Below, one piece after another: positions 1 to 31,860 of a DNA stretch of 64,000 nt. The stretch's first letter is position 1. Every line of letters begins with the position of its first letter. Source of the stretch: Datisca glomerata. Taxonomy: Eukaryota; Streptophyta; Magnoliopsida; Cucurbitales; Datiscaceae. The position numbers and the translations under genes are program-made. The notes under the pieces were generated by a model, which did no database searches, had not been told where the DNA came from, and worked only from the letters and a program-made list of their open reading frames with translations. The stretch lies in assembly GCA_003255025.1 (NCBI GenBank), contig QANY01005643.1, forward strand, positions 270,259 to 334,258, in the 5' to 3' direction.

Positions 1-496
1 TTTATCTCGACAGAATGTATGTGTAAACGTTCTTCGAATGAATGACCTAAATAAAAACTCGTTTAAAAGTAATCAGAAATTCAATTTTTCAAAATTAAGA
101 ATTTTAAACTTTATTTGTCTGTTGAAAGATGATTTTACCCTTCACTTCTTGAAGGTTCAAAGTAGCATTTTTAATATTTTTGTTTGTATCGAACACTAGC
201 TCAACTTCTTCAGGTGATGGTAGAAATAGGTTAAAATTATGAGTTTTTTTTTTACTTTTTTTTTTCAATTTCCTCGTGTTAAGACTAAGAGACATAGAAT
301 TATTTGTTTTATTTACAAATCTTTCTTGCTACAAGGTCATAAATTATAAATGATTTCTGACATAAAATTACAATAATATGATTTTAAGGACGTCCATAAT
401 GATAGTTAATATGATTGGCAGCAGTTTGAATATTTGCTTCTAAATCTCTCATGTTAACATTGATTTAAACAATAAATAATATTTAATTTGTTACAG
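1..496 (+). other. Probable intron upstream of the receptor-kinase exon
   Basis: This AT-rich stretch has no convincing coding region. It ends in a pyrimidine-poor but plausible splice acceptor (ttacag at 491-496), after which a long conserved kinase frame opens at once. I infer that it is the end of an intron and that the exons for the LRR ectodomain, the membrane segment and the kinase N-lobe lie to the left of the window. The 63-residue minus-strand ORF here is lysine-rich low-complexity sequence and is not supported. Confidence 0.5.
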
Positions 497-1140
497 AAGG
501 CCGAGGCGATGACCGAGTTCCATTCCGATGGAGCGCGAGAATATCAGCCGCTCGGGGTGTAGCTCAAGCACTGGAATATCTTCATCTCAATTACACCAAG
601 CCATCATCAAGCATTGCCCCTCATGGAAACTTAAAATCGTCAAACGTCCTCCTAGACGAAAACGAGAACGTTCTCATTTCCGATTACGGCCTAGCATCAC
701 TCGTAGCACACCCCATCGCGTCTCAACGGATGGTCTCATACAGATCACCCGAATATCAACACACGAAAAAAGTGTCAAAGAAATCCGACGTGTGGAGCTA
801 CGGTTGCCTTCTACTTGAGCTATTGACCGGGAAAATATCATCCGATACAGCCCCAACGGGGATCAAGGGGGCCAACTTGAGCAATTGGGTGCACCGAGCA
901 GTGAGGGAAGAGTGGACTGCAGAGATATTTGATATTGAGATATCACAACAGAGAAGTGCTACTCAAGGGATGTTGAGGCTGTTACAAATTGCTATTCGTT
1001 GTTGTGATAATTCACCTGAAAAGCGCCCTGAAATGAGTGAGATTGTCAAAGAGATTGACAATATGAAGGAGATGGAGTTGGATGATGATGAAGACTTGTC
1101 ACATGAACTGTCCTACACTGATGACTCAATGGGCAACTAA
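497..1140 (+). CDS. LRR receptor-like pseudokinase, C-terminal exon (partial gene)
   Basis: The exon reads without a stop in the frame of the codon at 499 and ends at a TAA at 1138-1140, giving about 213 residues. It opens at F-R-W-S-A-R and covers the kinase C-lobe. The catalytic-loop HRD triplet is replaced by H-G-N (then L-K-S-S-N-V-L-L) and DFG by D-Y-G. Next come S-P-E-Y in the activation segment, K-S-D-V-W-S-Y-G and an acidic tail (D-D-D-E-D, ending T-D-D-S). HGN and DYG with SDVWSYG are typical of the plant probable inactive, pollen-receptor-like LRR kinases. The missing catalytic Asp predicts a membrane signalling pseudokinase rather than an active enzyme; that is inference from the family. 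The exon starts after the acceptor at 491-496. An apparent Met at 730 lies inside the domain and is not the start. Confidence 0.9.
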
Positions 1141-2465: not shown

Positions 2466-3435
2466 CCATGTTCTACGTAACAGCTTGACTGACTTCTCTA
2501 ATACGCTCATTGAAGCTAAAAGGATAGGAAATGACTTGAAGCTTGTCTCTTAGAACTTCAAACTTTGACAGAGGCAATGGCTTAGTTAATTTGTCAGTAG
2601 TTTGAGCTTCACTAGAAATGTACTGCACAGTGAGTTGTTTGCCCAAAATCTTCTCTATAAAGAGAACATCCACTTCAATATGTTTAGTCCTTGAGTGAAA
2701 GACATGATTTGAAGCCAGCAATTCTACACTGATGTTATCACCACAAAGTGTGGGACATGGAGAGAGATTAATTGTTAGTCAAAGAATAATGATTGCAACC
2801 ATAGTGTTTCTGTGTGGCGGCTTGAGAAATTTTGTTTCAGCACTTGGTTTTGCTACAACATTCTGCTTTTTTGAACTTCATATAATCAAGTTATCCCAAA
2901 TATACATGATACCCTGTTGTAGATTTTCTGTCATTTGTGCAGCTAGCCCAGTCAGTATCAGTGTATCTTGTAAATGTGAGAGTAGTGTTGGTTTGAAGTG
3001 CAAACTAAGTGTAGCAGTACCTTTTAAATATCTCAGTACACCTTCACATGCTTTCTAGTGTTTTCCTGTGGTGGGTTCTTGCAGATATGGGCTCATTTTG
3101 TTTACTGAAAATGATATATCTAGTCTAGTCATTGTAAGGTATTGCAATGCTCCTATTGTGCTTCTATATAGAATAGGATCATAAAAAACAATTCCTGATG
3201 TCTTGCTTAACTTGACAAATGAGCACATAGGAGTAGAACATGAATTGGAATATGCCATATTAGTTTTCTGCAACAAATCCAAAATATACTTGGTTTGAGT
3301 GAGACAGATACCTAATGAGTTTCTTTGTGCTTCAAAGCCAAGAAAATAACCAAGTAAACCAAGTGTTTTAAGAAAAAAATTGTTGTTGAGATCTAAAATA
3401 ACCTTGTGAATAAAAGTATTATCACTTTCAAATAA
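2466..3435 (-). pseudogene. Ty1/Copia reverse transcriptase-RNase H remnant
   Basis: Read right to left, the sequence encodes the end of a Copia reverse transcriptase: a G-Y-F-L-G-F-E block near 3340, then L-T-Q-T-K-Y-I-L-D-L-L, the S-T-P-M block and T-M-T-R-L-D-I-S-F. It continues into the RNase H end (R-T-K-H-I-E-V-D near 2680, then T-D-K-L-T-K-P-L). The two open stretches (3055-3282 and 2473-2721) are joined by a region with stops and frameshifts, so the product is dead. Gag, protease, integrase and the catalytic half of the RT are absent. It directly abuts the pararetroviral cluster on its right. Confidence 0.85.
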
Positions 3436-3885
3436 ACTCTCTCAATTTGAAACTAATTTAAATTATAAGGTCTGAGATAGGGAAAACATGAGCAGCCAAA
3501 GACCATTAGAGATAAAAGATTTGAAGAACAAGAAACCCTCTTGTTAGATTTGATTTACAAAATTGAAAATCCAGAATTAAAACAAGAATACATTGAAAGA
3601 CTTAAAAAAGTAGTTTTAAAGAAAGAAAATACTAAGTCTAATAATAATAATACTGTAAGTCAAACAATAAAATAAAAGAAGAATTGAATCTTTTAAAAAT
3701 AGAAAATCTAATTCACGAACAAGAATTGTGTGAACCTAGTAAATTACTAATTTCGGATAATGAGGTTGAAGAACGCATAAACTGTCAAGACAATGATGAA
3801 CACTTTATCCAGATCCTCAATCACATAAAAATAAAAAAAATGGCATATAATGGTTAGAATAATCATTCAAGATTTTGATTTCACA

Positions 3886-4260
3886 ACAATGACTCTTGTA
3901 GATTCATGAGCAGATTTGAATTGTATGCAAGAGGGACTAGTTCCTACTAAGTACTTTAAAAAGACAAAGGAATCTTTATCTTCTGTCAATGGTACCCGAA
4001 TGCATATTAATTATGAAATACCCACAGTCCATATATGCCAATACAATGTATGTTTTAAAATATCATTTGTCTTAGTAAAAAATATGACTGACAAAATTAT
4101 CCTAGGTCTACCATTCATTACTCTGTTATATCCATTTTCAACAGAGTATGATGGAACAATTACATATATCATGAATAAACCCATAAAATTTAAATTCCTT
4201 TCTTTTCCCCACAATGAGAATTTAAAAAATTTAAAACAAAATTCTGTTTTCAAATCTATA
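3886..4260 (+). pseudogene. Pararetroviral aspartic protease, copy 1
   Basis: The retropepsin-like domain begins at the D-S-x-A-D signature near 3898-3915, where the glycine codon has become TGA. It continues through C-M-Q-E-G-L-V-P-T-K-Y-F and the family's I-L-G-L-P-F block near 4108. The open part (from 3916) is almost the same as the copy 2 protease at about 8060-8400, differing by scattered substitutions. The domain would cut the viral polyprotein. The stop in the active-site loop makes this copy inactive. Confidence 0.8.
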
Positions 4261-4935
4261 AATACAATTTCTTATAAAAAGAAACCATTGGGATTTTTAC
4301 AAGAAAAAATTAAATTAAGAAAAATTAAATTCTTTAGACAAAAAATTCATCGTTTGAAGATTAATTATAAGCCTCTAAAGAATATTATAAGATGGATAAA
4401 ATATTCGAAACCAAACAAAAGAGACTTAATCAACAGACTTAGAAATACTGGTATATTTAGCATAGAAACTAGATATTGGCAAAACTAGACGAATAAAAAA
4501 TACAAGATTATATTTGATCATTATAAAATAATGTCATCCGCTCTTAATAAAATTCAGAATATAAGAAGTAAAAACTTTAATCAAGTTATTGATTTCCCGA
4601 TTGTCTGCATTCTTATTAAACAATACTGGTTAAGTTTATTGATTGTTTACAATTATGAATATTTAAAATAATATTGGATCTACTCTAAATTATCTGTCAG
4701 GATAGTAAAACAAGATAGCAGAACCAAACGATCTCAGAATAGATTTCCAGGACTTAGAGTTTATTATTTCATTAATCAAATCATACAATTTTCCATAATT
4801 CAAAAATATCTTTTAAAAGTTAACTGCAAGTCTGTAGAATGTATTTTGAATGAAAAAATATTACTCCCAAACAAATTCTTGTCAGGTAGCAACCTATTCT
4901 CAATACGTCTAACCTTCTTTCTTATAGTTTTATGC
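4261..4935 (+). pseudogene. Collapsed pararetroviral RT and RNase H, copy 1
   Basis: After the protease the frame continues into short, eroded blocks that line up with copy 2. They include I-N-Y-K-P-L-K-N and N-K-R-D-L-I-N-R-L near 4360-4440, an eroded K-Y-K-I-I-F block near 4500, and then L-L-K-V-N-C-K-S near 4815, which matches L-L-K-I-D-C-K-S of the copy 2 RNase H at about 9740. The catalytic palm (the YxDD region) and most of RNase H are deleted. The alignment by eye is clear at both ends and weak in the middle (4560-4800). Confidence 0.65.
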
Positions 4936-5470
4936 AGAAAATCATTCCAAGATTCAACACTGCAGGAACTTGAGAATTCTGGCCAACTAGAATATGGAAA
5001 GGTAGGACCCAGAATACTCAATAAAAATTCTTTTAAAATAAAAAAACTTAACGGCAGAACAACCGCCTTTTGTTCAAAATCCCCATTTATTAATTATGGT
5101 CATAATGGATTTGAATATCCAAGAAATGACTGTATTAATGAATTAGATGAACTTTTAGATGATGTTGGATTCAAGGATAACTTCGATGAAGCAATAATTC
5201 AGTGGTATGAAAAAGGTGGAAATATAAGTTTTCACAAAGATAATGAAATCTGTTATGATAAAACAGTAAAATTTTAACCATAAACCTTTTGGGACAAGCA
5301 ATATTTAAAATTGAATTTCCAAATAAAACAATAGAAGAATTTTTGATTCTAGAAGGAACATTCTTCATCATGCGTGACGGATTTCAAAAGAGTCATAGGC
5401 ATGCAGTAGAATCCTTAACTGAAAGAATCATCATTACGTTCAGAAATCATGTGAGAATGATGAATGACTC
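4936..5470 (+). pseudogene. AlkB-like Fe(II)/2-oxoglutarate dioxygenase domain in a viral locus
   Basis: Two overlapping frames (ending at 5277, and from about 5271) together span an AlkB-type domain. The first has G-R-T-T-A-F, then a Y-G block, and W-Y-E-K-G-G-N-I-S-F-H-K-D-N-E: the HxD metal pair is His 5233-5235 and Asp 5239-5241. The second has I-L-T-I-N-L-L-G, a G-F-Q-K-S-H-R-H stretch with the distal metal His (5394 or 5400), and R-I-I-I-T-F-R. The last is the RxxxxxR 2-oxoglutarate/substrate signature, with Arg codons at 5424 and 5442. Known AlkB enzymes remove alkyl groups from nucleic acid, and viral versions are best known from positive-strand RNA viruses of plants. Here the domain follows an RNase H remnant and precedes ORF2. 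A frameshift in the A/T run at 5266-5275 breaks it. The N-terminal limit is uncertain. Confidence 0.8.
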
Positions 5471-5479
5471 AATAATAGA

Positions 5480-5949
5480 AGAATCTTTGACTCAACAATT
5501 GACCCTTAAGGACCAAATCAAAGAGGAGTCTTCTACTCCTAACCAAGCTCATTCAACAACACTTGGGTCCAATGGACTCAATCATCAATCAACCAACCAA
5601 TTTGACCCATTCTCAATATCCTTCGATGCCCAATCAATTTTAAAATACAAGAATTCATCATTTGATTCAAAAAATGGCCAGTGAAAATTTCTTTTATATT
5701 AGGCCTCCATTTGCTCATTTGAAGGACCCTACTCAAATTGACAAAGCCCATTTCATTCCTAAATTCCACTATGTCCCTGGACATAATAACAAAAACCTTA
5801 GTTTCTATAGAGATATTCTCTTAGAAATAAAATTCATAAAAATTAGCCCGATCAGAAATTTTGAAGAAAGAATCATTTACCATTCTTTCTCTATTCTCAG
5901 AACCATAACTATGGAGGATTGGATCCTTCAAATTTCAAAACAATTTTAA
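5480..5949 (+). pseudogene. Pararetroviral ORF2 start, copy 1
   Basis: A linker rich in Gln, Ser and Thr (from about 5480) matches the copy 2 linker at 9970-10110, including Q-I-K-x-E-S-S-T-P and N-Q-F-D-P-F. The ORF2 amino-terminal region follows (5662-5949), with F-Y-R-D-I-L-L-E-I-K, a block also found in copy 2 at about 10315-10345. ORF2 has no function that I can assign. The copy is cut after 5949, where the rest of ORF2 is deleted. Confidence 0.7.
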
Positions 5950-6109
5950 ATAAAAAATAATATAATTATTTTGACTATATTGATGCATGACACAATATTT
6001 TCTTGCATCAAAATAGTGATTCTCACTTTTGGTCATTAATACAGTATTTACTGTTTATCTTCTTGCTTCTTTATACTCCCTCTTATTTACTGTTCAATTC
6101 CACGTCTTT

Positions 6110-6121
6110 TGGTATCAGAGT
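6110..6121 (+). promoter_or_regulatory. tRNA-Met primer-binding site between copies 1 and 2
   Basis: tggtatcagagt differs by one base from the usual initiator tRNA-Met complement used to prime minus-strand synthesis in plant pararetroviruses. It ends the intergenic region of copy 1 and starts the leader of copy 2. A related 5' flank (ttcttgcttctttata, then tcttttggtatcag) recurs before the site at 11651 and, inverted, at 11733. Confidence 0.85.
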
Positions 6122-6558
6122 AAAAACTTATGGAGATAATACTGTTCATAAACTGTTTCTACTTCAATCTGTATAGTTCATATTGTTTGCCGCCTATTAT
6201 GGGTAGTTATTGATAATATTGTTTACTTATTCACTTACATGAATAATTACTTATATCTAATCATACTCTCCGCCCAAGTGGCTGGTTATTCTTATAATTG
6301 ATTATTTCTCTGTATTATTTGTTTGCCTAATCTGTGAATCTGTTTAGGCTGACGTATCAACTTCTATTTGGTTAGCTTCAGGGACCTAGGTAAGACCTCT
6401 TAGATACGTAAATCTCGAGGGTATGATGGTTGTAGAGGTGAAAGGGAGAAGAGTGAGCCTAATAGGAGGTTGTAGAAGTCACCGCAAGGTTAGTAACAAA
6501 AAATACAATATGAAATTCTCAATAATAAGAATAACTTAGTTAATTGAGCAATTAGTAG

Positions 6559-7270
6559 ATTATTTAAGAGTAATTCTTCCAGTAGTAATAGGTCAACAAT
6601 AACCTCAATACCTGACATAATAAATGACGAACACATTGAATTAACAGATGATCAAGTAGATTATATGGTATGGAATATACCTAAAATTTTCAATAAAAAT
6701 ATTTATAAATCAACATGGTCTATTGCTTCTTTCAAGCCTCAGCATCATGTAAAAATAATTGAAAAATTATATGCTCCTGGAAAAGAGCATGAAACATGTC
6801 AATTTCTTTCCTCTAATGCAATAAATCATCATATTCAAGAAGGATATAATTTCTTTCATTTTGGTTTAGTCCAGATTGGAGTAAAACCACTCACAAGAAG
6901 AGGCCTAAATACCTCTGTCTTATTAACCTTGCGAGATGCAAGATTTAAAAATTTTAATGACAGTATTTTAGGATTAATTGAATCTTCACTTTGTAATGGT
7001 CCAATTCATTTTGATTGTTTTCCTGATCTGTCTGTTAGTTTAGCAGATCCCCATATTTAAAATCATTAACTTTAAATATTAAAACTAGTGGTTACCAAGT
7101 TCTAGAAGGTACCCAACTTCTAGCTTTAATCTTTAGAATTCATTACAAAGTAACCAAAACAAATATGAACTTCCAAGCCATCAATAGGAGTCCAAAGAAT
7201 CAAACTCTATTGATACAATCTAGTCAAAGTAATGCAAATATTAGAGTTCCTAAAATAATTAAGTGGTCTG
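6559..7270 (+). pseudogene. Pararetroviral movement protein, 30K superfamily
   Basis: The open part (6665-7060) has the 30K-family core: F-H-F-G-L-V-Q-I-G-V, then the L-x-R-x-G-L-N stretch and L-R-D-A-R-F with the conserved D-x-R signature. In-frame residues upstream (from about 6559, S-x-P-D-I-I-N-D-E) probably belong to the same protein. A frameshift just before the TAA at 7058 moves the rest (K-S-L-T-L-N-I-K near 7060-7095, to about 7270) into another frame. Movement proteins widen plasmodesmata for cell-to-cell spread. The family call rests on motif order. Confidence 0.8.
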
Positions 7271-7365
7271 ATATTAATTTACCAACAAATTGACTTTTAA
7301 CTAATGAAAGTCAACCTACCTAAATTCAAAGACCAATTGAAGATATAGATTACATCCATCAGTAC

Positions 7366-7881
7366 ATGGATGATACTGTAAAAATTAACTTTCAATCATC
7401 TTTTGGTCCACAAATTAGGGAGTATAACGAGCCTAGTACCCCTAGGAATTCATTTTCTGGATCATCCATTGATAATGATCAAAATATTAGGATCCAACAT
7501 TTAGAACAAGAATTAAAGAAATTACAAATTAAAAATTTAAAACTTAAAGGCATAGCCACGAGTTCTCAAGTTAGTCAGCCAGTCTTTGATAATAAGTCTG
7601 ATCAATCTGATGAAACTAAAGCACCCACTGGATCAGATTTCCAAGGAAGTCTTCATTCTGTCAATCCTCAACTCTTAGTTCTAAACATAGGAATCTTGAG
7701 TCAAGAATATAAACTAGATTGGGAAGGTCTAACCCAACACAACAATGATCCAAACAATCTAAGTAGATGTAATAGGTTTAAAGATTCATATGATATGGAT
7801 AAAAGAAAAGTCATACTTGCTGAATGGAAGGAATTTATGCAAGAATTTAAAATTGATATATTTTTTTCTAGATTATGTTGA
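7366..7881 (+). pseudogene. Pararetroviral coiled-coil region between MP and protease
   Basis: The open frame of 171 residues carries a heptad-type helix (I-x-x-L-E-Q-E-L-K-K-L-Q-I-K-N-L-K-L near 7489-7545), then a Ser/Asp-rich low-complexity stretch and a charged end (E-W-K-E-F-M-Q-E-F). The position between movement protein and protease is where caulimovirids keep virion-associated coiled coils and the capsid. No capsid core or CCHC knuckle is visible, so the capsid part is probably lost near 7880. Function is inferred from position only. Confidence 0.6.
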
Positions 7882-8432
7882 ATATTTACGAAAGAAATAT
7901 CAAAATAATTTCAAAATATAAATGTGTTAAGGAAGACTCTAGTGTAGTATCTGCTAGTCATCCTCCTCCTGAGAAAATCATGATTAATCATAAAATTTCA
8001 TTAATCACTGTTTCTCCTTTCAAGATTGCAAAGGAAGAAGAACCAAACAAAAAAGCAGATTTGAATTGTATGCAAGAAGGACTAGTTCCTACTAAGTACT
8101 TTAAGAAGACAAAAGAATCTCTGTCTTCTGCCAATGGTACCCGAATGCATATTAATTATGAAATACCCACAGTCCATATATGCCAAGACAATGTATGCTT
8201 TAAAACATCATTTGTCTTAGTAAAAAATATGACTGACAAAATTATCCTAGGTCTACCATTAATTGCTCTGTTATATCCATTTTCAACAGAGTATGATGGA
8301 ATAATTACCTATGTCATGAATAAACCCATAAAATTTAAATTCGTCTCTTTTCCCAGTAATGAAAAATTAAAAACTTTAAAAGAAAAATCTATCTCTAATT
8401 TAATAAAACTCATTTCTTGCAAAGAAAAATAA
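7875..8432 (+). pseudogene. Pararetroviral aspartic protease, copy 2
   Basis: A 185-residue open frame carries A-D-L-N-C-M-Q-E-G-L and the I-L-G-L-P-L block typical of the retropepsin fold. The segment before A-D-L-N differs from copy 1, and the catalytic D-S-G is missing: the residues there are N-K-K-A-D, consistent with a deletion junction just upstream at about 8055. The part from 8060 to about 8370 is closely similar to copy 1 (3915-4225). Without the catalytic Asp it would be inactive. Confidence 0.8.
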
Positions 8433-9290
8433 TTATGTTTTTTAAAAGATGAATTAAAGTTTAACAGAGTTGAAGAACAGCTTCAAAGTTCTATTCTTCA
8501 AAACAAAATTAAAATATTTGAACAAAAAATCTGTAAAGAATTATGTTATGATATTCATAATACTTTTTGGCATAGAAATCAACATACTGTTAGTCTTCCC
8601 TATATTAAGGGATTTGATGAGAAGAATATTCCAACAAAGGCAACGCCAATTAAGATAAATTCGGAAGTACTTGAGTTTTATAAGAAGAAAATTACAGAAC
8701 TTCTCAATAAGAATGTTATTAGAAGAAGAAAATTTTCTTGGTCCTGCTCGGCCTTTTTTGTCCAGAAGGCCAGTGAAATCGAACGAGGAGTTCCTCGTTT
8801 AGTAATCAATTATAAACCCCTAAATAATGTTTTAGAATGGATAAGATTCCAATACCTAACAAAAGAGATTTAATAAATAGACTTGGAGATGCAGTAGTAT
8901 TCTTTAAATTTGATATGAAATCTGGATTTTGGCAAATCCAGATAAATGAAAGTGATAAATATAAAATAGCATTTGCAACTCCCTTTGGCCATTATGAGTG
9001 GAATGTTATGATTTTTTGTCTTAAAAATGCTCCTAGTGAATTTCAAAATATAATGAATGAAATCTTTAATCAATTTACTGATTTCTTAATTGTTGACATT
9101 AATGATGTACTTATTTTCTCAAAAACAATATAACAACAACTGAGACACCTTGAATCATTTGTTAGGTTAATAAAATAAAATGGTCTAGTTATCTCTGCAA
9201 GCAAAATTAGATTATTTCAATCTAAGGTTAGATTCTTAAGATTCGAAATACACCATTCTATAATCAAGCCAATTGACAGGGTAATACAAT
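8433..9290 (+). pseudogene. Pararetroviral reverse transcriptase, copy 2
   Basis: RT blocks run in order through several frames: the N-terminal fingers near 8600-8830 (L-L-N-K-N-V-I-R-R, then L-V-I-N-Y-K-P-L-N-N), K-F-D-M-K-S-G-F-W-Q-I-Q near 8905-8945, F-G-H-Y-E-W-N-V-M, and N-A-P-S-E-F-Q-N-I-M-N-E-I. The FDMKSGFWQIQ and EWNVM...NAPSEFQ blocks are diagnostic of Caulimoviridae. The catalytic YxDD is changed: it reads D-I-N-D near 9090-9105, so the enzyme is dead even apart from the frameshift near 8840 and the stop at 9131. Confidence 0.9.
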
Positions 9291-9938
9291 TTGCTGACAA
9301 ATTTTCTAATGAAATTATAGATAGAACACAATTGCAAAGATTTCTAGGATCTTTAAATTACATATCCGATTTCTACAATAAAATGAGAATTGATTGTAAA
9401 CCTCTCTTTGACATGTTTAAAAAGAATCCCCCTCCTTGGACAACTGTTCATACTGATTTGATCAAAAGAATTAAAACCCATGTTAAGACACTTCCATGTC
9501 TTGGCATTCGCACTAATAATTCTTTTAAAATTGTCCAAACTGATGGCTCTGAAATTGGATATGGATGTATCCTGTTACCAAAGATTTTCCCAGAAGCACC
9601 TGAAGAAATTGTTAGGTTTACAACTTGAACGTGGTCTCAATCACAAAGTTAATTACAATACTATTAAGAAAGAAATTTTATCTGTTGTATTATGCATACA
9701 AAAATTTCAAGATGACTTGTTAAATAAAAAATTCTTGTTAAAAATTGATTGTAAATCTCCTAAGTATGTTTTAGAAAATGATGTTAAAAATATAGCTTCC
9801 AAACAGATCTTTGCTAGATGGCAGTCTATACTTAGTATTTTTTATTTTAATATTGAATTTATTAAAGGAGTTAATAATTCAGTTCCTGACTTTTTAACAC
9901 GTGGATTCCTGCAGGGGCAACAAAAGGATGGGGTCTAA
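9291..9938 (+). pseudogene. Pararetroviral RT connection and RNase H, copy 2
   Basis: The thumb/connection block (Q-L-Q-R-F-L-G-S-L-N-Y-I) at about 9330-9362 leads to RNase H, with V-Q-T-D-G-S-E-I-G-Y-G near 9535. A frameshift near 9620 moves the rest into a second frame: Y-N-T-I-K-K-E-I-L-S-V-V, then L-L-K-I-D-C-K-S, and N-N-S-V-P-D-F-L-T-R near 9870-9900. The frame ends at a TAG at 9936. Where copy 1 carries the AlkB-like domain, this copy has only about 30 residues before the linker to ORF2. Confidence 0.85.
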
Positions 9939-9959
9939 ACCCCAAACCTCTGGGAAAAT

Positions 9960-11278
9960 GGCCAAAGGAGAATCCTCCACACACCAATTGGCCATCAAGG
10001 CCCAAATCAAAGATGAGTCTTCTACTCCAAGAAATACCTAGTTAACGGTCATTGGGTCTACCAGGCCTAATTACCAAAGTGCTTTGGTCAATCAATTTGA
10101 CCCATTTGCAGTTTTTAAACCATTTGACCCGTAATTGGTTATCAACCAACCACTCACCAATTACAGAAAATCTTCTCCTTATCATAGGAAAACCCCCAGT
10201 AAAAATCTCTTCTATATTGAACACCACCCATTTTAAAAATCCAATAGAAATAGTAAAGGCTCATTTCCTCCCTGATTCTCATTTTGTCCCTGTATACAAG
10301 AACAAAACCATTAATTTCTACAGAGATATTCTCCTAGAAATAAAATCAATAAATGTCAAACCTATAAATAGTGCAGAAGGAAAAATCCTTTATCATTCCT
10401 TCTATATCCTCAGAATAATAACTTTAGAGGAATGAAAAATCCATCCCAGGGTTAAAAACCATTTTAAATAAAAAATAATATAATTATTTTGACTATATTG
10501 ATGCATGGCAAACAATTTTCTTGCACCAAAATAGTGAATTTTCCCATTCTTTGTTTTTAAATTTTGACAAAAATTTCAAAATTAATTTACCAAAATGGTT
10601 TTCAAGATGGTGGACAATCCATGATCCTGTCTTTGAAATTTTCTTAATCGAATTACAACAAAATTACAGTTTATTTTTAAAATTATTTAAACCCTCAACA
10701 GTTGAGGCCTCTTTCCCTCCAATAATTTATTTTGTCAATAAATTCAAAATTCCTTAGATTCTTAAATGGCAATATGCCATTGAAGGAGAAATCCTCACCA
10801 GACAATACTATGTAAAATGGTGGGACAAATTCAGTACATTAAAAATATTTGCCTCCATCCATGAAGAATTAGCAAAATCTCACCATCAGATAAAATCTCT
10901 CAAACCTCCAATGGCCACCTTAAAAATTAAGGAACCAGACAATCAGGCTCTGCAAATTAACCAATCATCAAATTCCTCCCAAAATTCAAAATCTACCACA
11001 AGACTTTCTTCAAAAGGCAAAATCAGGTCTAAAAAATCCAAAGAAAAACATGAGTTTATTCAAAAATGCTCATTCTTCTTGAAAATAATACGAGTTCTAA
11101 CTCCGAATACTTAGTAGAATCAAGTCACCTAATCAAGAACAAAAAGAGTCAATCTCCATCTAAAAAAGTAAAGGAAAAATCTCATGCTCAGTCTCTTCCC
11201 CTATGGGCCCATGATCCTTTCCAAGATTCTCAAGACCCTTTTGAGGATGTGGACCTCAGTGAAGATGAAGATGAATAG
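9960..11278 (+). pseudogene. Pararetroviral ORF2 (unknown function), copy 2
   Basis: The remnant runs through at least four frames: a linker with N-Q-F-D-P-F (about 10090), F-Y-R-D-I-L-L-E-I-K (10315), a Trp-rich block W-F-S-R-W-W-T-I-H (10590-10617), F-P-P-I-I-Y-F near 10715, a Tyr/Trp block near 10806-10830 (Y-Y-V-K-W-W-D-K-F), a Lys/Ser-rich region and an acidic tail with D-P-F-Q-D-S-Q-D-P-F and E-D-E-D-E (to 11278). The same blocks occur in the inverted copy at 12590-13190. I know no function for this protein; the basic middle and acidic tail suggest a nucleic-acid or capsid role, which is speculation. Confidence 0.7.
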
Positions 11279-11677
11279 TTTCATTGTTGGTAAAATGCCA
11301 TTAAGATATTTAAGAGATTATGATAACATAAAAGCACAATGCAATGATCATAATGCTCTTCAACACAATCAAAGGACAAGTCCAGGATAACAATTATCCA
11401 CCAACTGTCTCAACCAATCAAAGCTTTCTTCTTCTACTCCTATTTTGTAAATCTTTTCTTCTTTTTTCTTCAACGTAAATTAGTGGGCATGTGCACTAAT
11501 TTATTGTCACCAATAAACTCTGTTTGTGTAAGTTTTTAATCTTACACCTTCATACAGTAATTATTTTTACTGCTAATTAATACATTATTTACTATTTATC
11601 TTCTTGCTTCTTTATACCCCCTCTTATTTACTATTCAATTCCGCGCCTTTTGGTATCAGAATCAAAACCTGGTGGGG
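11279..11677 (+). promoter_or_regulatory. Copy 2 intergenic region, poly(A) signal and primer site
   Basis: This region has an AATAAA at 11512-11517, then a T-rich leader and the tRNA-Met primer site at 11651 (tggtatcaga, then atcaaaacctgg). From about 11417 to 11677 it pairs as an inverted repeat with 11707-11967. The TATA-type promoter seen in the inverted copy is not visible here; homology between the arms starts only at aaagctttcttcttctac, so the promoter end is lost or diverged. The copy ends exactly at the junction 11677/11678. Confidence 0.75.
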
Positions 11678-11967
11678 AAGTAGAAATAGTTTATGAACAG
11701 TATTATCCCCACCATGTTTTGACTCTGATACCAAAAGGCGCAGAATAGAACAGTAAATAAGAAGGGGTATAACGAAGCAAGAAGATAAACAGTAAATACT
11801 GTATTAATGAACAGTAAAAACAGTTACTGTATGAAGGTGTAAGATTAAAAACTTACACAAACATAGTTTATTGGCGACAATAAATTAGTGCTCCCGCTCA
11901 CTAATTTATGTTGAAGAAAAAATAAGAAAAGATTTACAAAAGAGGAGTAGAAGAAGAAAGCTTTGTT
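11417..11967. repeat. Large inverted repeat at the junction of copies 2 and 3
   Basis: The left arm (about 11417-11677) and right arm (about 11707-11967) are reverse complements with scattered mismatches and a 29-base spacer. At the centre, tggtatcaga plus caaaac (from 11651) faces the same sequence on the other strand (from 11733). Both arms carry an AATAAA and a primer site. As transcribed RNA this would fold into a hairpin of about 260 base pairs. Confidence 0.9.
11721..11733 (-). promoter_or_regulatory. tRNA-Met primer-binding site, copy 3
   Basis: Read on the minus strand this is tggtatcagagtc. Its first 11 bases match the usual initiator tRNA-Met complement, the same length of match as at 6110 and longer than at 11651. 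Confidence 0.85.
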
Positions 11968-12052
11968 TCACAAAACAGGTTTTAGCTCTCAAATAGTAAG
12001 AGTTGTAAAACGAGTTCTGTTTCACAAATGGGAGAGACTACCTATTTATAGC
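11867..12052 (-). promoter_or_regulatory. Pararetroviral promoter and poly(A) signal, copy 3
   Basis: On the minus strand a good plant TATA box (tataaata, 12050-12043, in gctataaatagg) is followed about 170 bases downstream by AATAAA (11872-11867) and then the primer site at 11733. This order of TATA, cap region, poly(A) signal and primer site is the standard arrangement for the terminally redundant pregenomic RNA. It is the only copy in which all parts are visible. Activity is not shown by sequence alone. Confidence 0.65.
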
Positions 12053-12589
12053 TAAGGAAAGTGGAGTTCACCGGGAACCCATCACTTACCTGAACTATTC
12101 TCTTCTACAAAAGTAAAAATATTTTACATGCCTACTTTTGACTAAGAATAGTAAAAGCGTAAATAGTTGCCTAATAATTTAACAACTAGTATTTTTACAG
12201 ATAAAGACAAAAATGTAGAGATAAGCATTATCTTGGTTTTCGTGTCTTCATAATTTCTCTGTCATGATTGTTTTGTGATTGAAATGTCATTGAGACTGTT
12301 GCACATTAGATCTCTTGATAATTGTTATCTTAGTTGGAGAAATCATAATTACTATTTGAAAAGTTTATTTGCTTTGGGTCCTTGATAATCACTGTGTTGG
12401 ACTTTTGTGTTCATGACTATTTATCTTTTCTTGGAGATGACCATTGCATTGGGTCAATGTGTCATCATGATTTATCAAATATCTGGCATTTTACCAAAGA
12501 CAAATTTCTTTACCTATTTTGTCCGAATTACTTATGAGATCATCCTCATTGGATGGGTCCTTCAATTGTTGAAGAGTGGCTTTTTATTA
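12053..12589 (-). other. Copy 3 intergenic region upstream of the promoter
   Basis: This is viral intergenic DNA on the minus strand. It shares short blocks with copy 2 at about 11320-11410, such as ataacaattatc. No coding sequence beyond the end of ORF2 is supported. Confidence 0.5.
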
Positions 12590-13190
12590 ACTTGATTCTG
12601 TAAGGGATTTAGAATTAGATTCATTATTTTCCTCCAAAAGGAGAAGTATTTCTTGGAGTAAGTTTTTCTTTAATTTGGACTTTGGAGTTGTGCCCCTTGA
12701 TTTATCCTTTGGAAGGGGTTTGGATCTGGATTTTGATTTGGGTTTGGAAGGATTTTGATTTGGGTAGTTTTATTTGTGGAGCTAGGTCAATGGGCTCATT
12801 AATTTTTAATAGATCTTGGATGAAAGGATTTGCTAGTCTCATATTGGGATGGATGCTTGCAAACTCATAATTGATGGATGCCATAATTTTCTGGGTATTT
12901 AACTTATCCCACCAATAATATTCTCCGGTGAAGATTCCTCTTTTAGTCAAGTATTGCCATTTTAAAATCGAAGGTATTTTATATTTTATTGAAAAATAAA
13001 GTATTTGAGGAAATAAGGCCTCATTTGGAGAGGGTTTGTAAACCTTTAAAAATAAATTGAAACATTGTTGTAAATCCATTGGGAAAAGTTCTAAGGTAAA
13101 ACCATGAATGGACCACCATTTTAAGAACCAGCTTAGAAAATCAATTTTAAAATTGTTATCAATTGAATTAGACCTTGGAGGATTATCACC
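12590..13190 (-). pseudogene. Pararetroviral ORF2, inverted copy 3
   Basis: The minus-strand open frame 13079-12702 carries F-P-Q-I-L-Y-F, K-Y-K-I-P, the L-K-W-Q-Y block and Y-Y-W-W-D-K-L, matching the copy 2 ORF2 at about 10640-10830. In-frame sequence to its right (about 13190-13080) adds the Trp-rich F-L-K-W-W-S-I-H, matching copy 2 at 10590-10617. To the left (12700-12590) a charged tail continues with frameshifts (L-L-E-E-N-N-E-S-N-S). The amino-terminal third is missing. Function unknown. Confidence 0.75.
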
Positions 13191-13229
13191 TCGTAAAGGA
13201 GTATCTTTTCACGATGAAATTTTAATATT

Positions 13230-13751: not shown

Positions 13752-14310
13752 CAATAGAGTAATTGTTAGTGCAACTCCATCAAAACAATCTTGCGATTAC
13801 TTTTCGTAATGAAGTTAATTTATAATTTCAATGGTTACATATTTAGAAGAAACAATCATGTGTACAATGAAGTCATCCATATGTCTATGAGTTCCCCTCT
13901 CTACTTGGAAAGGATATTTGCTTTCTTTCACTATCCCATCATTCATGATCCACTTAAAAAATTTATAATGAGAACCAAAAATAGACCAAATATGTTGTGA
14001 AACCGTGTTTGAAGGATAACGAAATTTCTTTTATAGCACATGGGTTTGATCATTCGTCAGACACTGTTTGACAACATAATTTTGTTTTCCGTTCTCATCA
14101 TAAAATTCTTAAGTGGGTCATGAAGAATTGGATAGTGAAAGAAAGTGAATACCCTATCCAATGTGTGAGAGGAACATGTAGACATATCAAAAGATTGCTT
14201 CTTCTAAATATATAAACATTCACATTATAGAATAACTCAATCAGTAAAAGTAATCACAAGATTATTTTGATAGAGTTACACACCATTTATTGTGCAATGT
14301 CTATGAGTTA
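13752..14310. repeat. Inverted (foldback) repeat, arms about 260 bp
   Basis: The left arm (about 13752-14020) and right arm (about 14040-14310) are diverged reverse complements. Matching blocks include ctttctttcactatcc (13920) against its complement at about 14136, atatttagaagaa (13836) against ttcttctaaatat (14200), and tgcgattac against gtaatcaca. It could be a foldback transposon or an inverted duplication next to the Copia LTR. No coding capacity was seen. Confidence 0.7.
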
Positions 14311-27968: not shown

Positions 27969-28790
27969 ATGGCAGAACCATCAACCTCCGGCCAGCTTCA
28001 CCACCATGACACCAATCCCAGACTAACCTCCATCCTGCTCACTGGCCACAACTACATACCGTGGGCCAGGGTGGCTCGGGTCAGCCTGAAAGGAAGAGGC
28101 AGACTGGGTTTCGTGGACGGCAGTAAGCCAAGACCAGACCGAAACTCAGAGGAATGGGACATCATGGACAGCCAGGTAATGACCTGAATAACTAATTCAA
28201 TAGACCCAAAACTCAGTGAAATCTTTTGTTTCTGTGAAACAGGACAAGAACTCTGGGAAGAAATCCGGAGCAACTATTGTGAACAAAATAATTTCGTGCA
28301 AGTCTTTGAACTTAAACGAGAGATCTCCCAAGCAAAACAGGGGGACGGATCAGTACCGGAGTTAACCGGGTTTTTAAAATCTAAGTTCAAAAAACTTGAA
28401 ACCCTGAGACCGATGACCACTGACCTGAAGGAACTCCAAGAGCGGGCTAACCAGGATATGGTTTTCCGTTTCTTGACGGCTCTCGACTCAAGCTACGAAG
28501 CGTTCCGAGCTCAGATCTTGATGTCGACAGAGAAGCCAACTTTTGCCACGGTTTCAGACATGGTTCAAAGAGAAGAAACCAGGTGACGAGTAATGAGTAC
28601 CAGAGATGACAAGGCGGAGGCACTAGCCATGGCGACCCGCGGCTCCCTCCGAAACCCTAACCCTAAGGAAGGGGGAAGGCACCGCGGACAGCCAGGCGAG
28701 CCGGTGAAATGCAGCCACTGCCGAAAGGAAGGGCACACCCACGACCGATGCTCAAACAATTCAGAGAATTTTTGCGCGATATCTCAGGTT
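27969..28790 (+). pseudogene. Copia gag
   Basis: The ATG at 27969 opens a gag protein with the N-terminal block L-L-T-G-H-N-Y-I-P-W-A, a helical middle (V-F-E-L-K-R-E-I near 28300) and a CCHC zinc knuckle, C-S-H-C-R-K-E-G-H-T-H-D-R-C, near 28711-28752. A TGA at 28185 and another at 28585 interrupt the frame; otherwise it is well preserved. Gag packages the element RNA in cytoplasmic particles. Confidence 0.9.
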
Positions 28791-30363
28791 CATCCATTTG
28801 CAATACTGTCAATTATTTTTCTAAATCTGTAAATTTTTGTCATAACTTAGAACACTGGATAATATACGCTGGTGCCTCTGACCACATGACTCATAACACA
28901 AAAAATCTACACAGTCTCACTAAATTAGAAAAACCACAACACGTGACTGTAGCCAATGGAAATAAAGTTCTAATTTTTGGCATAGGGTCCACCACACTCT
29001 TCACAAAAACCATTAACAACGTACTTTGTCTACCCAATTTTAACTCCAATCTCCTATCCGTCAGTAAAATAACCAAAGACTTAAACTGCAATGTTACTTT
29101 TTCAACTGACAAAGTAATTTTTCAGGATCGAGTCACCGGGAGGAAGATTGGTGAAGGGAAATTTAGAAACGGTATGTACTACTGAGAAGATACCGACAAA
29201 ACATGCCTTTCCACCTCCAGTACATTACAAAAAGATAAAATATTACATTGGAGATTCGGTCATCCCTCCAACAAAATCCTAAACAAATTACTTGGTTGTA
29301 ATTCTGACTCTAGCAGTTGCTCAGTCTGCAAACTCTCAAAACAAACCAGGTTACCCTTTGCACTATCTAGTAGTACGACAAAATGATGTTTTGAATTAAT
29401 TCATTCTGATGTTTGGGGACCCGCCCCAGTTGATTCATATAATAAATTCAAATATTTTGTTACATTTATTGATGATTCTCTCGCACCATATGGTTATATA
29501 TTTTGAAATCAAAAAATGAAGTCTTCAGTCGTTTTCAGGAGTTCAACAATTTAGTTGAAACTCAATTTGAAACAACCATAAAAATCTTTAGGTCTGACAA
29601 TGGAACTGAGTATACTAACAACACCTTTTTTGAGTTTTTTAAACAAAAGGGTATACGACATCAAACCACCTGTATCCACACCCCACAACAAAATGGTGTC
29701 TCAGAACACAAAAACCGACACCTTCTTGAAATGACTAGGTCTCTCCTCCTCCAAAACAACGTACCCAAAAGATACTGGTCCGATGCTATACTCACAACAA
29801 CTTACCTCATCAATCGATTACCCAGTGTAAAATTGCATCTGAAAAGCCCTCTAGAAATTCTCAAGGGTAGGAAAATTAACCTTGATCACATACGAGTATT
29901 CGGATGTACATGCTTCGTACACATTCCACGACTTGATAAATTGGACAAAACCTCAGTCAAAACCTTATTTTGGGGTATCCCAATAAACCATAAATTCCAC
30001 ATCTCGTGCGATGTACAATTTTTAGAACTAGAATCCTATTACCCAAAGGGCCCCGACAATCATAACTACCACCAAACGTTTCCGCTACCTAACAATATTA
30101 TTTCCTCCGATATCATAAGACAGGAACAGGACACCGCATCAACCGCGCCTGAGACAACTACCTCAGGGGGAGCAACTGATGAGGCAGTTGTCACTGATGA
30201 AGCAGTAAGCGTAAGAAGGTCAACAAGGCAAACTCAACCCCCAGCAAGATTAAAAGACTACGTGTCCCATCAGGTTCTATACCCTATCAAAAATTTCCTA
30301 TCTTATGATAAAATTTCTAACATCCACAGGGCATACTTGGGAAAAATTGATGAAACAGTTTAG
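28791..30363 (+). pseudogene. Copia protease and integrase
   Basis: The protease active site near 28857-28880 reads I-I-Y-A-G-A-S-D-H-M, so the catalytic Asp of the D-S/T-G triad is lost. After a TGA at 29183 comes the integrase zinc-binding HHCC region (H-W-R-F-G-H-P, then C-S-V-C near 29320) and the core: H-S-D-V-W-G-P near 29402, F-R-S-D-N-G-T-E-Y near 29589 and Q-Q-N-G-V-S-E-H near 29690. These are the D, D and E of the catalytic triad. A frameshift near 29480-29500 and a stop at 30361 break the polyprotein. Confidence 0.9.
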
Positions 30364-31860
30364 CCAAAAACCTATTAAGAAGCCCAACTCGACCCCAAAT
30401 GAAGAAAGGCGATGAATGAAGAACTTCTAGTTTTGGAAAAGAATGAAACTTAGGACATAATCCCACTACTCAACGGGAAGAAACCTGTAGTATGTAAATG
30501 GGTCTACAAGACCAAATACAACAGCAACGGCACTATCGAAAGATATAAAGCCCGACTAGTTGCCAATGGCTTTACTCAGACATATGGAGTGGATTACCAG
30601 GAGACGTTCGATCCAGTGGAAAAAATGAACACAATCCGAGTGTTACTATCCGTTGGGAACTATATCAAATGGATGTAAAAAATGTATTCCTCCAAAGAAA
30701 TCTGGAAGAAGAAGTATATATGTCTCTGCCTCTAGGACACGAGAAAGCAACGCACCCATCTCTGGTATGTAGATTAAAGAAGGCTATCTACGGCCTGAAA
30801 CAGGCACCACGGGCATGGTATGAAAAATTAAGCTTGTCTCTTTTAAAAATTAACTTTGTCAAAAGCTCGGCTGACTCATCTATGTTCGTCAACACACGAA
30901 CAACTCCACCACCATCATTTTAGTCTACGTAGATGACATTATCATCATCAGAAATAACCACAATGAAATATGGAGTGTTCAACAATTTCTAAAAGGAGAG
31001 TTTGATATTAAAGATCTAGGAAAACTGAAGTACTTCCTAGGGATAAAAATAGCTCACTCGAAAAAGGGATTGTTTCTGTCTCAAAGATAATATATCTTAG
31101 ACTTGTTAAAAGAAACAGGCATGATAGGGGAAAAACCTGCTAGCACACCAATGGAAACCAACATGAAAATAGGACTGAATGATAGCAAACCAATAATTGA
31201 TATAGGCCAATATCAGAGACTAGTAGGAAAACTAATTTATCTAATGGTTACAAGACCAGATATCACTTTTGCAGCTAACGTTATCAGTCAATTCATGCAC
31301 GCACCCTGTACAAATCACCAGGCAGCCGTAGAAAGGATACTCGGATACCTTAAAGGAACACCCGATCAAGGGATATGGATTAAGAGACCCGGGGCAAACT
31401 CCGTAGTTAGATACACTGATGTAGACTTGGCAGGTAGTTATGATAGAAAATCTACAACTGGCTTATGTGTCTTTGTAGGTGGAAATCTAGTAACTTGGAA
31501 GAGCAAGAAACAAACTGTTGTAGCAAGGTCAAGTGCAGAGGCAGAATACAGAGCCATGGCCTCCACTGCTAGTGAACTCACATGGATTAGACATCTCCTT
31601 CAAGACATGAAGGTCGAGATAAGAAAACCGATAGAGATGCACTGTGACAATCAAGCAGCACGTCATATTGCAATGAACCCCGTTTTCCGCGAGAGAACCA
31701 AACACATTGAAGTGGACTGTCACTTCATAAGAGAGAAAGTACAGTCGGGAGAAATCGCCATTCCCTTTATACGTAGTGAAGACTAGCTAGCCGACATCTT
31801 CACCAAAGCCCTTGACAAAAATAACCTCCAAAGAATACTTAACAAGTTAGGCTCGATCAA
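30364..31860 (+). pseudogene. Copia reverse transcriptase and RNase H
   Basis: The Copia RT blocks are present: V-C-K-W-V-Y-K-T-K near 30495, R-Y-K-A-R-L-V-A, V-D-Y-Q-E-T-F, A-I-Y-G-L-K-Q-A-P-R-A-W-Y near 30783, and the intact catalytic Y-V-D-D near 30928. RNase H follows, with T-D-V-D-L-A-G, S-S-A-E-A-E-Y near 31531 and T-K-H-I-E-V-D near 31699. Stops lie near 30450, 30676, 30921, 31088 and 31784, and a frameshift separates 30923 from the YVDD block. The level of decay is light, in line with LTRs that are still similar. Confidence 0.9.

Follow-up and report, generated by a model that had tools for sequence, protein, structure and literature searches.

What is a dioxygenase domain of the AlkB family doing inside an integrated plant virus that replicated by reverse transcription? 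The question is raised by a window of 64,000 nucleotides from Datisca glomerata (contig QANY01005643.1, positions 270,259 to 334,258 of the forward strand; the window is the whole stretch of DNA analysed here), where an AlkB block lies between a remnant of the reverse transcriptase (RT) and RNase H and the second open reading frame (ORF2) of an endogenous member of the Caulimoviridae. The reading that we favour, with a probability of roughly three in four, is that the domain is a true part of a gene of a caulimovirid, now extinct or dormant, that had two genome types, one of which (AlkB-type) would have been copied in trans by the other (RT-type) and would have made an active demethylase. This reading is built on the architecture of the element, its copy number, the common junctions of the domain, an RT active site that is undetectable, purifying selection on AlkB, and a 5' half that the two types share.

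The copy in the window, which we call unit A, is organized as follows:

3481..6020, plus strand: unit A, a 5'-truncated AlkB-type element with pre-protease, protease, RT/RNase H vestige, AlkB and ORF2 start, delimited by tblastn and alignment to a neighbouring unit B and to genome copies
3910..4284, plus strand: fragment of an aspartic protease (PF00077, E 0.027, below cut-off), 83% identical in protein to unit B
4315..4936, plus strand: RT/RNase H vestige, the RT active-site motif missing; a comparable vestige is present in 37/38 genome copies
4937..5277, plus strand: AlkB 5' piece (frame of 4672-5277), which carries HxD at 5233/5239; searched alone, it gives a weak match to PF13532 (the AlkB-type 2OG-FeII_Oxy_2) over HxD, at residues 150-192 (E 0.0088, below cut-off)
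5262..5462, plus strand: AlkB 3' piece (frame of 5262-5684), comprising the core strand, the distal His at 5400 and both arginines, R 5424 and R 5442; searched alone, it matches PF03171 (E 6.2e-5, slightly above cut-off)
5463..5949, plus strand: linker downstream of AlkB, running into the first part of the ORF2 region; its homologue in unit B is 9957-10435

A first-pass annotation had proposed the domain from signatures spread over two frames, and these are indeed in place: H 5233 and D 5239 of the HxD motif in the upstream frame, and, in the downstream one, the two arginines of RxxxxxR (5424 and 5442) together with both candidates for the distal histidine (5394 and 5400). Between these candidates, left undecided at first, a 19-copy profile aligned to a host PF13532 gene selects 5400 (within H-A-V) and discards 5394; the histidine at 5400 is kept in 38/38 genome copies and that at 5394 in 34/38. 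Each frame alone therefore finds an oxygenase profile, one half below cut-off, and searches of NCBIfam and PDB with the window pieces returned no AlkB-family match. The left edge of the block (~4937) coincides with the end of homology to AlkB-less units, and homology is back near 5463; alignments of unit A with unit B, and of AlkB-type with RT-type copies, place the block after RNase H, which ends at ~4936, and before the pre-ORF2 linker (~5463). The split over two frames seen in the decayed window copy does not characterise the family, the domain lying in a single open frame in 19/38 of the other copies.

The AlkB-type element is a family in this genome. A PF13532 search of the 678 Mb assembly, with 150 of 427 candidates scored, gave at least 129 matching places, of which 40 were fetched, while 83 lie outside both the fetched set and the host genes that were set aside. 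The AlkB pieces of the window match in 38 of the 40 (the exceptions being L063 and L068), and the same DNA stands there beside pararetroviral genes. Counting matches restricted by position to the same unit as AlkB, a scope that also holds for the identities and selection estimates below, the RT vestige is in place in 37 of the 38 copies, the AlkB N-terminal part in 38, the ORF2 start in 35, the ORF2 end in 33, the protease in 31, and the zinc-knuckle region and coat in 29 each, an unknown share of the missing parts being due to the ends of the fetched stretches or to deletion. Movement-protein stretches, 80-83% identical, are found at the start of the AlkB-type loci L076 and L099. The proposed location after an RNase H remnant and before the ORF2 region thus recurs across the genome copies.

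In the 19 copies whose AlkB domain is free of stops and close to full length, HxD, the distal H and RxxxxxR align in this order, and all five of the open domains scanned pass the PF13532 cut-off of 31.2, at 36.4-41.3 bits (E 2.6e-10 to 8.3e-9), on which values chance motif matching was rejected. The best preserved architecture is that of L065, where a single frame of 902 amino acids consists of protease, vestige, AlkB and ORF2, and an upstream frame of 771 amino acids carries the coat protein (PF22909, E 4.6e-13), DUF7746 and a zinc knuckle (zf-CCHC, E 1.1e-4). Two outcomes that the first-pass annotation had set against its own claim, the lack of any AlkB profile match and a host gene or RNA-virus insertion devoid of pararetroviral neighbours, were not what we found: profiles match both the window pieces and the open copies, and viral neighbours recur at 38/40 places.

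Could a piece of a host ALKBH gene, or of an RNA virus, nevertheless have landed by chance in one integrated copy, with no relation to the virus? The junctions of the AlkB block argue against it. They are recognisable in 34/38 copies on the left and 37/38 on the right (with a score of at least 22 of 50 required, the best of 200 shuffles of the left junction reaching 15), so that a late insertion of a host gene or RNA-virus sequence is out, and they point to a single acquisition of AlkB. Moreover, in L065 the domain shares the reading frame of the viral polyprotein, and the host PF13532 genes met here are only weakly similar to it, the AlkB profile scoring 12 bits against the best of them and 6 bits against E. 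coli AlkB. Refuted by this multicopy in-frame architecture, a chance insertion is scarcely credible, and the weak host similarity makes a recent capture from those host genes unlikely. No outside relatives were found in IMG/VR by the window pieces, the AlkB profile or the RT alignment, and a DNA pattern for the core strand gave 50 stretches there, of which 0 passed the motif check. The domain may be more like the AlkB of flexiviruses, which is a lead only.

The second distinctive trait of the AlkB-type is the reduction of its RT. Y-x-D-D is found in 0/38 copies within the 1.5 kb upstream of AlkB, and the Pfam family RVT_1 in 0/4 AlkB-type open stretches scanned (with one chance match to another family). 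The genome also holds RT-type relatives: four copies picked for long frames (L102-L105) have YIDD (4/4) and match RVT_1 (4/4, at E 7.2e-30 or better), and an AlkB match is present in 0/4. An RNase H profile is found in three of these four loci, and not in the scanned frame of L102; L102 includes the coat end, L102-L104 span the zinc-knuckle region, and L105 covers its later part. At the scale of the assembly, 150 RT places were scored out of 10404 candidates and set beside 121 AlkB places, 8 of the 129 having been dropped as host-like or unconfirmed. Among these, 0/121 AlkB places have an RT place directly upstream on the same strand within 1.8 kb, and 13/121 lie within 10 kb of one, against 0.54 expected at random.

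Defective elements typically lose RT, and 19/38 copies do not pass as open in AlkB. Both facts would suit the passive spread, as host repeats or through in-trans copying, of a dead deletion derivative in which AlkB was a functionless passenger. We therefore turn to selection, estimated by pooled pairwise ratios of nonsynonymous to synonymous substitution rates (dN/dS; Nei-Gojobori, codon bootstrap, stops masked, positions limited as above), which pool selection before and after integration. The AlkB domain has been under purifying selection: its core has a dN/dS of 0.30 (0.22-0.40; 38 copies), the lowest of seven stretches, against 0.59 (0.48-0.72; 28 copies) for the RT vestige, these intervals being optimistic because the copies are related and the pairs not independent. 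Intermediate values were obtained for the ORF2 start (0.32; 34 copies), protease (0.36; 28), coat (0.37; 22) and ORF2 end (0.48; 28). The core reached the value of the vestige in 0/1000 bootstraps, and in 1/1000 in a run without position limits; with open copies only, likewise without these limits, the ratio is 0.31 for the core (23 copies) and 0.57 for the vestige (4 copies only). The five catalytic residues are better conserved (mean 0.968) than the AlkB core taken whole (0.896). Together with the L065 frame, open through protease, vestige, AlkB and ORF2, these values speak against passive spread, which we consider unlikely.

Demethylation need not have been the selected role: AlkB might have been maintained for RNA binding, for instance, or as a fold within the ORF2 protein. 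The metal ligands tell against such a role, the first His being kept in 38/38 copies, the Asp in 36/38 and the distal His in 38/38; we regard this alternative, too, as quite unlikely. The two arginines of RxxxxxR are kept in 34/38 each.

Were the AlkB-type and RT-type two viruses or one? In the zinc-knuckle/pre-protease region, nucleotide identity is 0.842 among AlkB-type copies (23 copies), 0.844 among RT-type copies (4) and 0.835 between the types, the pair L095/L104 reaching 0.981. The corresponding values are 0.857 (28), 0.933 (4) and 0.787 for the protease, and 0.878 (35), 0.877 (2) and 0.712 for the ORF2 start. With only 4 RT-type copies in the comparison, the 5' halves are therefore mixed between types and the 3' halves distinct, the pattern to be expected when jointly replicating genomes recombine. 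Within the window, the protease stretches 3909-4208 of unit A and 8054-8353 of unit B are 95% identical, the remaining shared stretches being at 72-92%; this mosaic pattern is suggestive of recombination between the viral types.

Both types are in fact neighbours in the window, where unit A is followed by a decayed RT-type copy (unit B) and by the inverted end of a further AlkB-type element (unit C):

6110..11650, plus strand: unit B, a decayed RT-type sister without AlkB, with movement protein, protease, RT, RNase H and ORF2
6548..7060, plus strand: movement protein of unit B (PF01107, E 1.6e-9)
7872-8054: deletion in unit B of the coat protein and protease start, clean and private to this unit
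8433..9938, plus strand: RT and RNase H of unit B, in several broken frames (RVT_1 E 5.5e-13, RT_RNaseH E 4.6e-9), YxDD decayed
11722..13208, minus strand: unit C, inverted 3' end of a second AlkB-type element, its AlkB part falling outside the window
6110-6121 (plus), 11651-11662 (plus) and 11722-11733 (minus): putative tRNA-Met primer sites, that at 6110 with 1 mismatch to the consensus, for which location at the unit ends is the sole evidence

The window has 7 such primer-like sites against 3.3 expected, which is not significant. Unit C is assigned by its protein, 82% identical to ORF2 from an AlkB-type copy and 46-52% identical to unit B. An inverted repeat at 11416-11968 (263 nt, arms 91% complementary, 27-nt spacer) marks the place where unit B meets the inverted unit C, an arrangement that is a compound head-to-head viral insertion. 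Unit B was also considered as a coat-less component A in the sense of the florendoviruses discussed below, a possibility that we rejected because the junction of its coat deletion is found at one genomic place only (with up to 3 mismatches allowed).

Around the viral units, remnants of a Copia-type RNase H and RT adjoin unit A at 2473-3441 (minus strand), and a decayed Copia-like element with several long frames lies at 28188-31786, both recognised by eye. Two nested inverted repeats at 13769-14281, 80-81% complementary, resemble a small hairpin transposon, and the C-terminal part of a protein kinase gene is present at 487-1140 (plus strand; PF00069, E 2.6e-21).

Concerning affiliation, a 30K movement protein (in unit B), the coat protein and the zinc knuckle are those expected of Caulimoviridae, to which the element belongs. 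The order protease-RT-RNase H without integrase is found in the RT-type, the AlkB-type itself being without RT, and no integrase family was detected by profiles among the window, AlkB-type and RT-type pieces scanned. The closest parallel is component B of the florendoviruses, which has kept movement protein, coat and protease, lacks RT and the N-terminal part of RNase H, bears a C-terminal polyprotein extension homologous to the ORF2 of its partner, and forms compound insertions with that partner (Geering et al., 2014; PMC4241990). The AlkB-type likewise lacks RT and N-terminal RNase H and has ORF2 fused to the polyprotein, but differs by the AlkB domain between vestige and ORF2. The RT-type, for its part, has kept zinc knuckle and protease (with the coat end in L102), unlike the florendovirus component A, which has a coat deletion. 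By analogy, and on 4 RT-type copies, the AlkB-type may be described as a caulimovirid component resembling florendovirus component B.

Several observations weigh against the reading of AlkB as a working part of a two-type virus. The N-terminal part of the domain is less constrained than the core (dN/dS 0.43, 0.29-0.68; 29 copies), 4/38 copies have a loss or gap at the first arginine and 4/38 at the second, and a PDB search with the AlkB profile gave no match, that by pieces giving one chance match. No single AlkB-type unit was read end to end, and the movement protein stands upstream of the coat in two loci only, the L099 piece being without a Pfam match of its own. A looser [YFV]xDD motif occurs in 1/38 copies (L082), inside a stop-broken stretch, and decay alone can erase YxDD, as in unit B, which has lost the motif while its RVT_1 match persists. 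The proximity of AlkB and RT-type places could reflect the integration of arrays at favoured sites. As the RT-type loci read are 4 (2 for the ORF2 comparison), an AlkB beside an intact RT may yet exist.

In the two-type reading, the RT-type genome coded for protease, RT and RNase H, preceded by sequence of coat protein and zinc knuckle. Its AlkB-type counterpart kept coat and protease (and a movement protein, seen in two loci), with RT/RNase H reduced to an inactive in-frame vestige and the AlkB domain joined to the ORF2 protein. This AlkB-type genome would have been replicated in trans by the enzyme of its RT-type sister, packaged in the same coat, and may have released an active Fe(II)/2-oxoglutarate demethylase. 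Integrated side by side in the window are a decayed AlkB-type copy and an RT-type copy, together with the inverted 3' end of a further AlkB-type element.

As for substrates, 1-methyladenosine (m1A) and 3-methylcytidine (m3C) block Watson-Crick pairing, hence reverse transcription, and their removal is established AlkB chemistry. The enzyme might have removed these marks, or N6-methyladenosine (m6A), from pregenomic or host RNA, m6A being a candidate by analogy with an orchid element (PMC9289625). In a more specific scenario, one genome of a two-component pararetrovirus would have traded its RT for an RNA/DNA demethylase maintained by selection; copied by its sister, it would in return have shielded the common pregenomic RNA, or the tRNA primer, against methylation by the host or against methyl lesions at which reverse transcription stops. 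We put this forward tentatively, its chances being a little short of even.

AlkB domains are known from plant positive-strand RNA viruses, where they lie in replicases with methyltransferase, helicase and RNA-dependent RNA polymerase (Bratlie and Drablos, 2005; PMC544882). The domain described here has the same HxD, H and RxxxxxR, the same position inside a polyprotein and a Pfam 2OG-FeII_Oxy match, but it is carried by a reverse-transcribing DNA virus. An ALKBH5-like domain with m6A demethylase activity in vitro has also been described in Ty3/Gypsy elements of Phalaenopsis (Alvarado-Marchena et al., 2022; PMC9289625), which are long terminal repeat (LTR) retrotransposons of 25 kb with AlkB in an ORF of its own, nested among the Arabidopsis ALKBH5 homologs. 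Here too, AlkB was gained by a plant reverse-transcribing element, the difference being that it stands in frame within a viral polyprotein. The screen in that work covered 121 genomes and 423 caulimovirid consensus sequences and reports the domain in Phalaenopsis only; it would miss an RT-less carrier because RT is its marker.

We found no report of AlkB in a caulimovirid in the open literature searched (including PMC10377300, PMC2714080 and PMC12846519), closed journals being outside this scope, and the available text of a 2026 survey (PMC13308828) has 0 occurrences of oxygenase, demethyl or Alk. The first-pass annotation likewise knew of no AlkB described in a reverse-transcribing DNA virus; among plant retroelements, the orchid Ty3/Gypsy lineage is a precedent (PMC9289625). 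The authors of CAULIFINDER report a lower sensitivity for component B (PMC9719215), and RT-based surveys would more generally have a blind spot for RT-less carriers. AlkB having been known previously from plant positive-strand RNA viruses and one orchid retrotransposon lineage, a multicopy and selected AlkB in a caulimovirid would extend methyl-erasing to reverse-transcribing DNA viruses, and makes the marking of pararetroviral RNA by plants testable.
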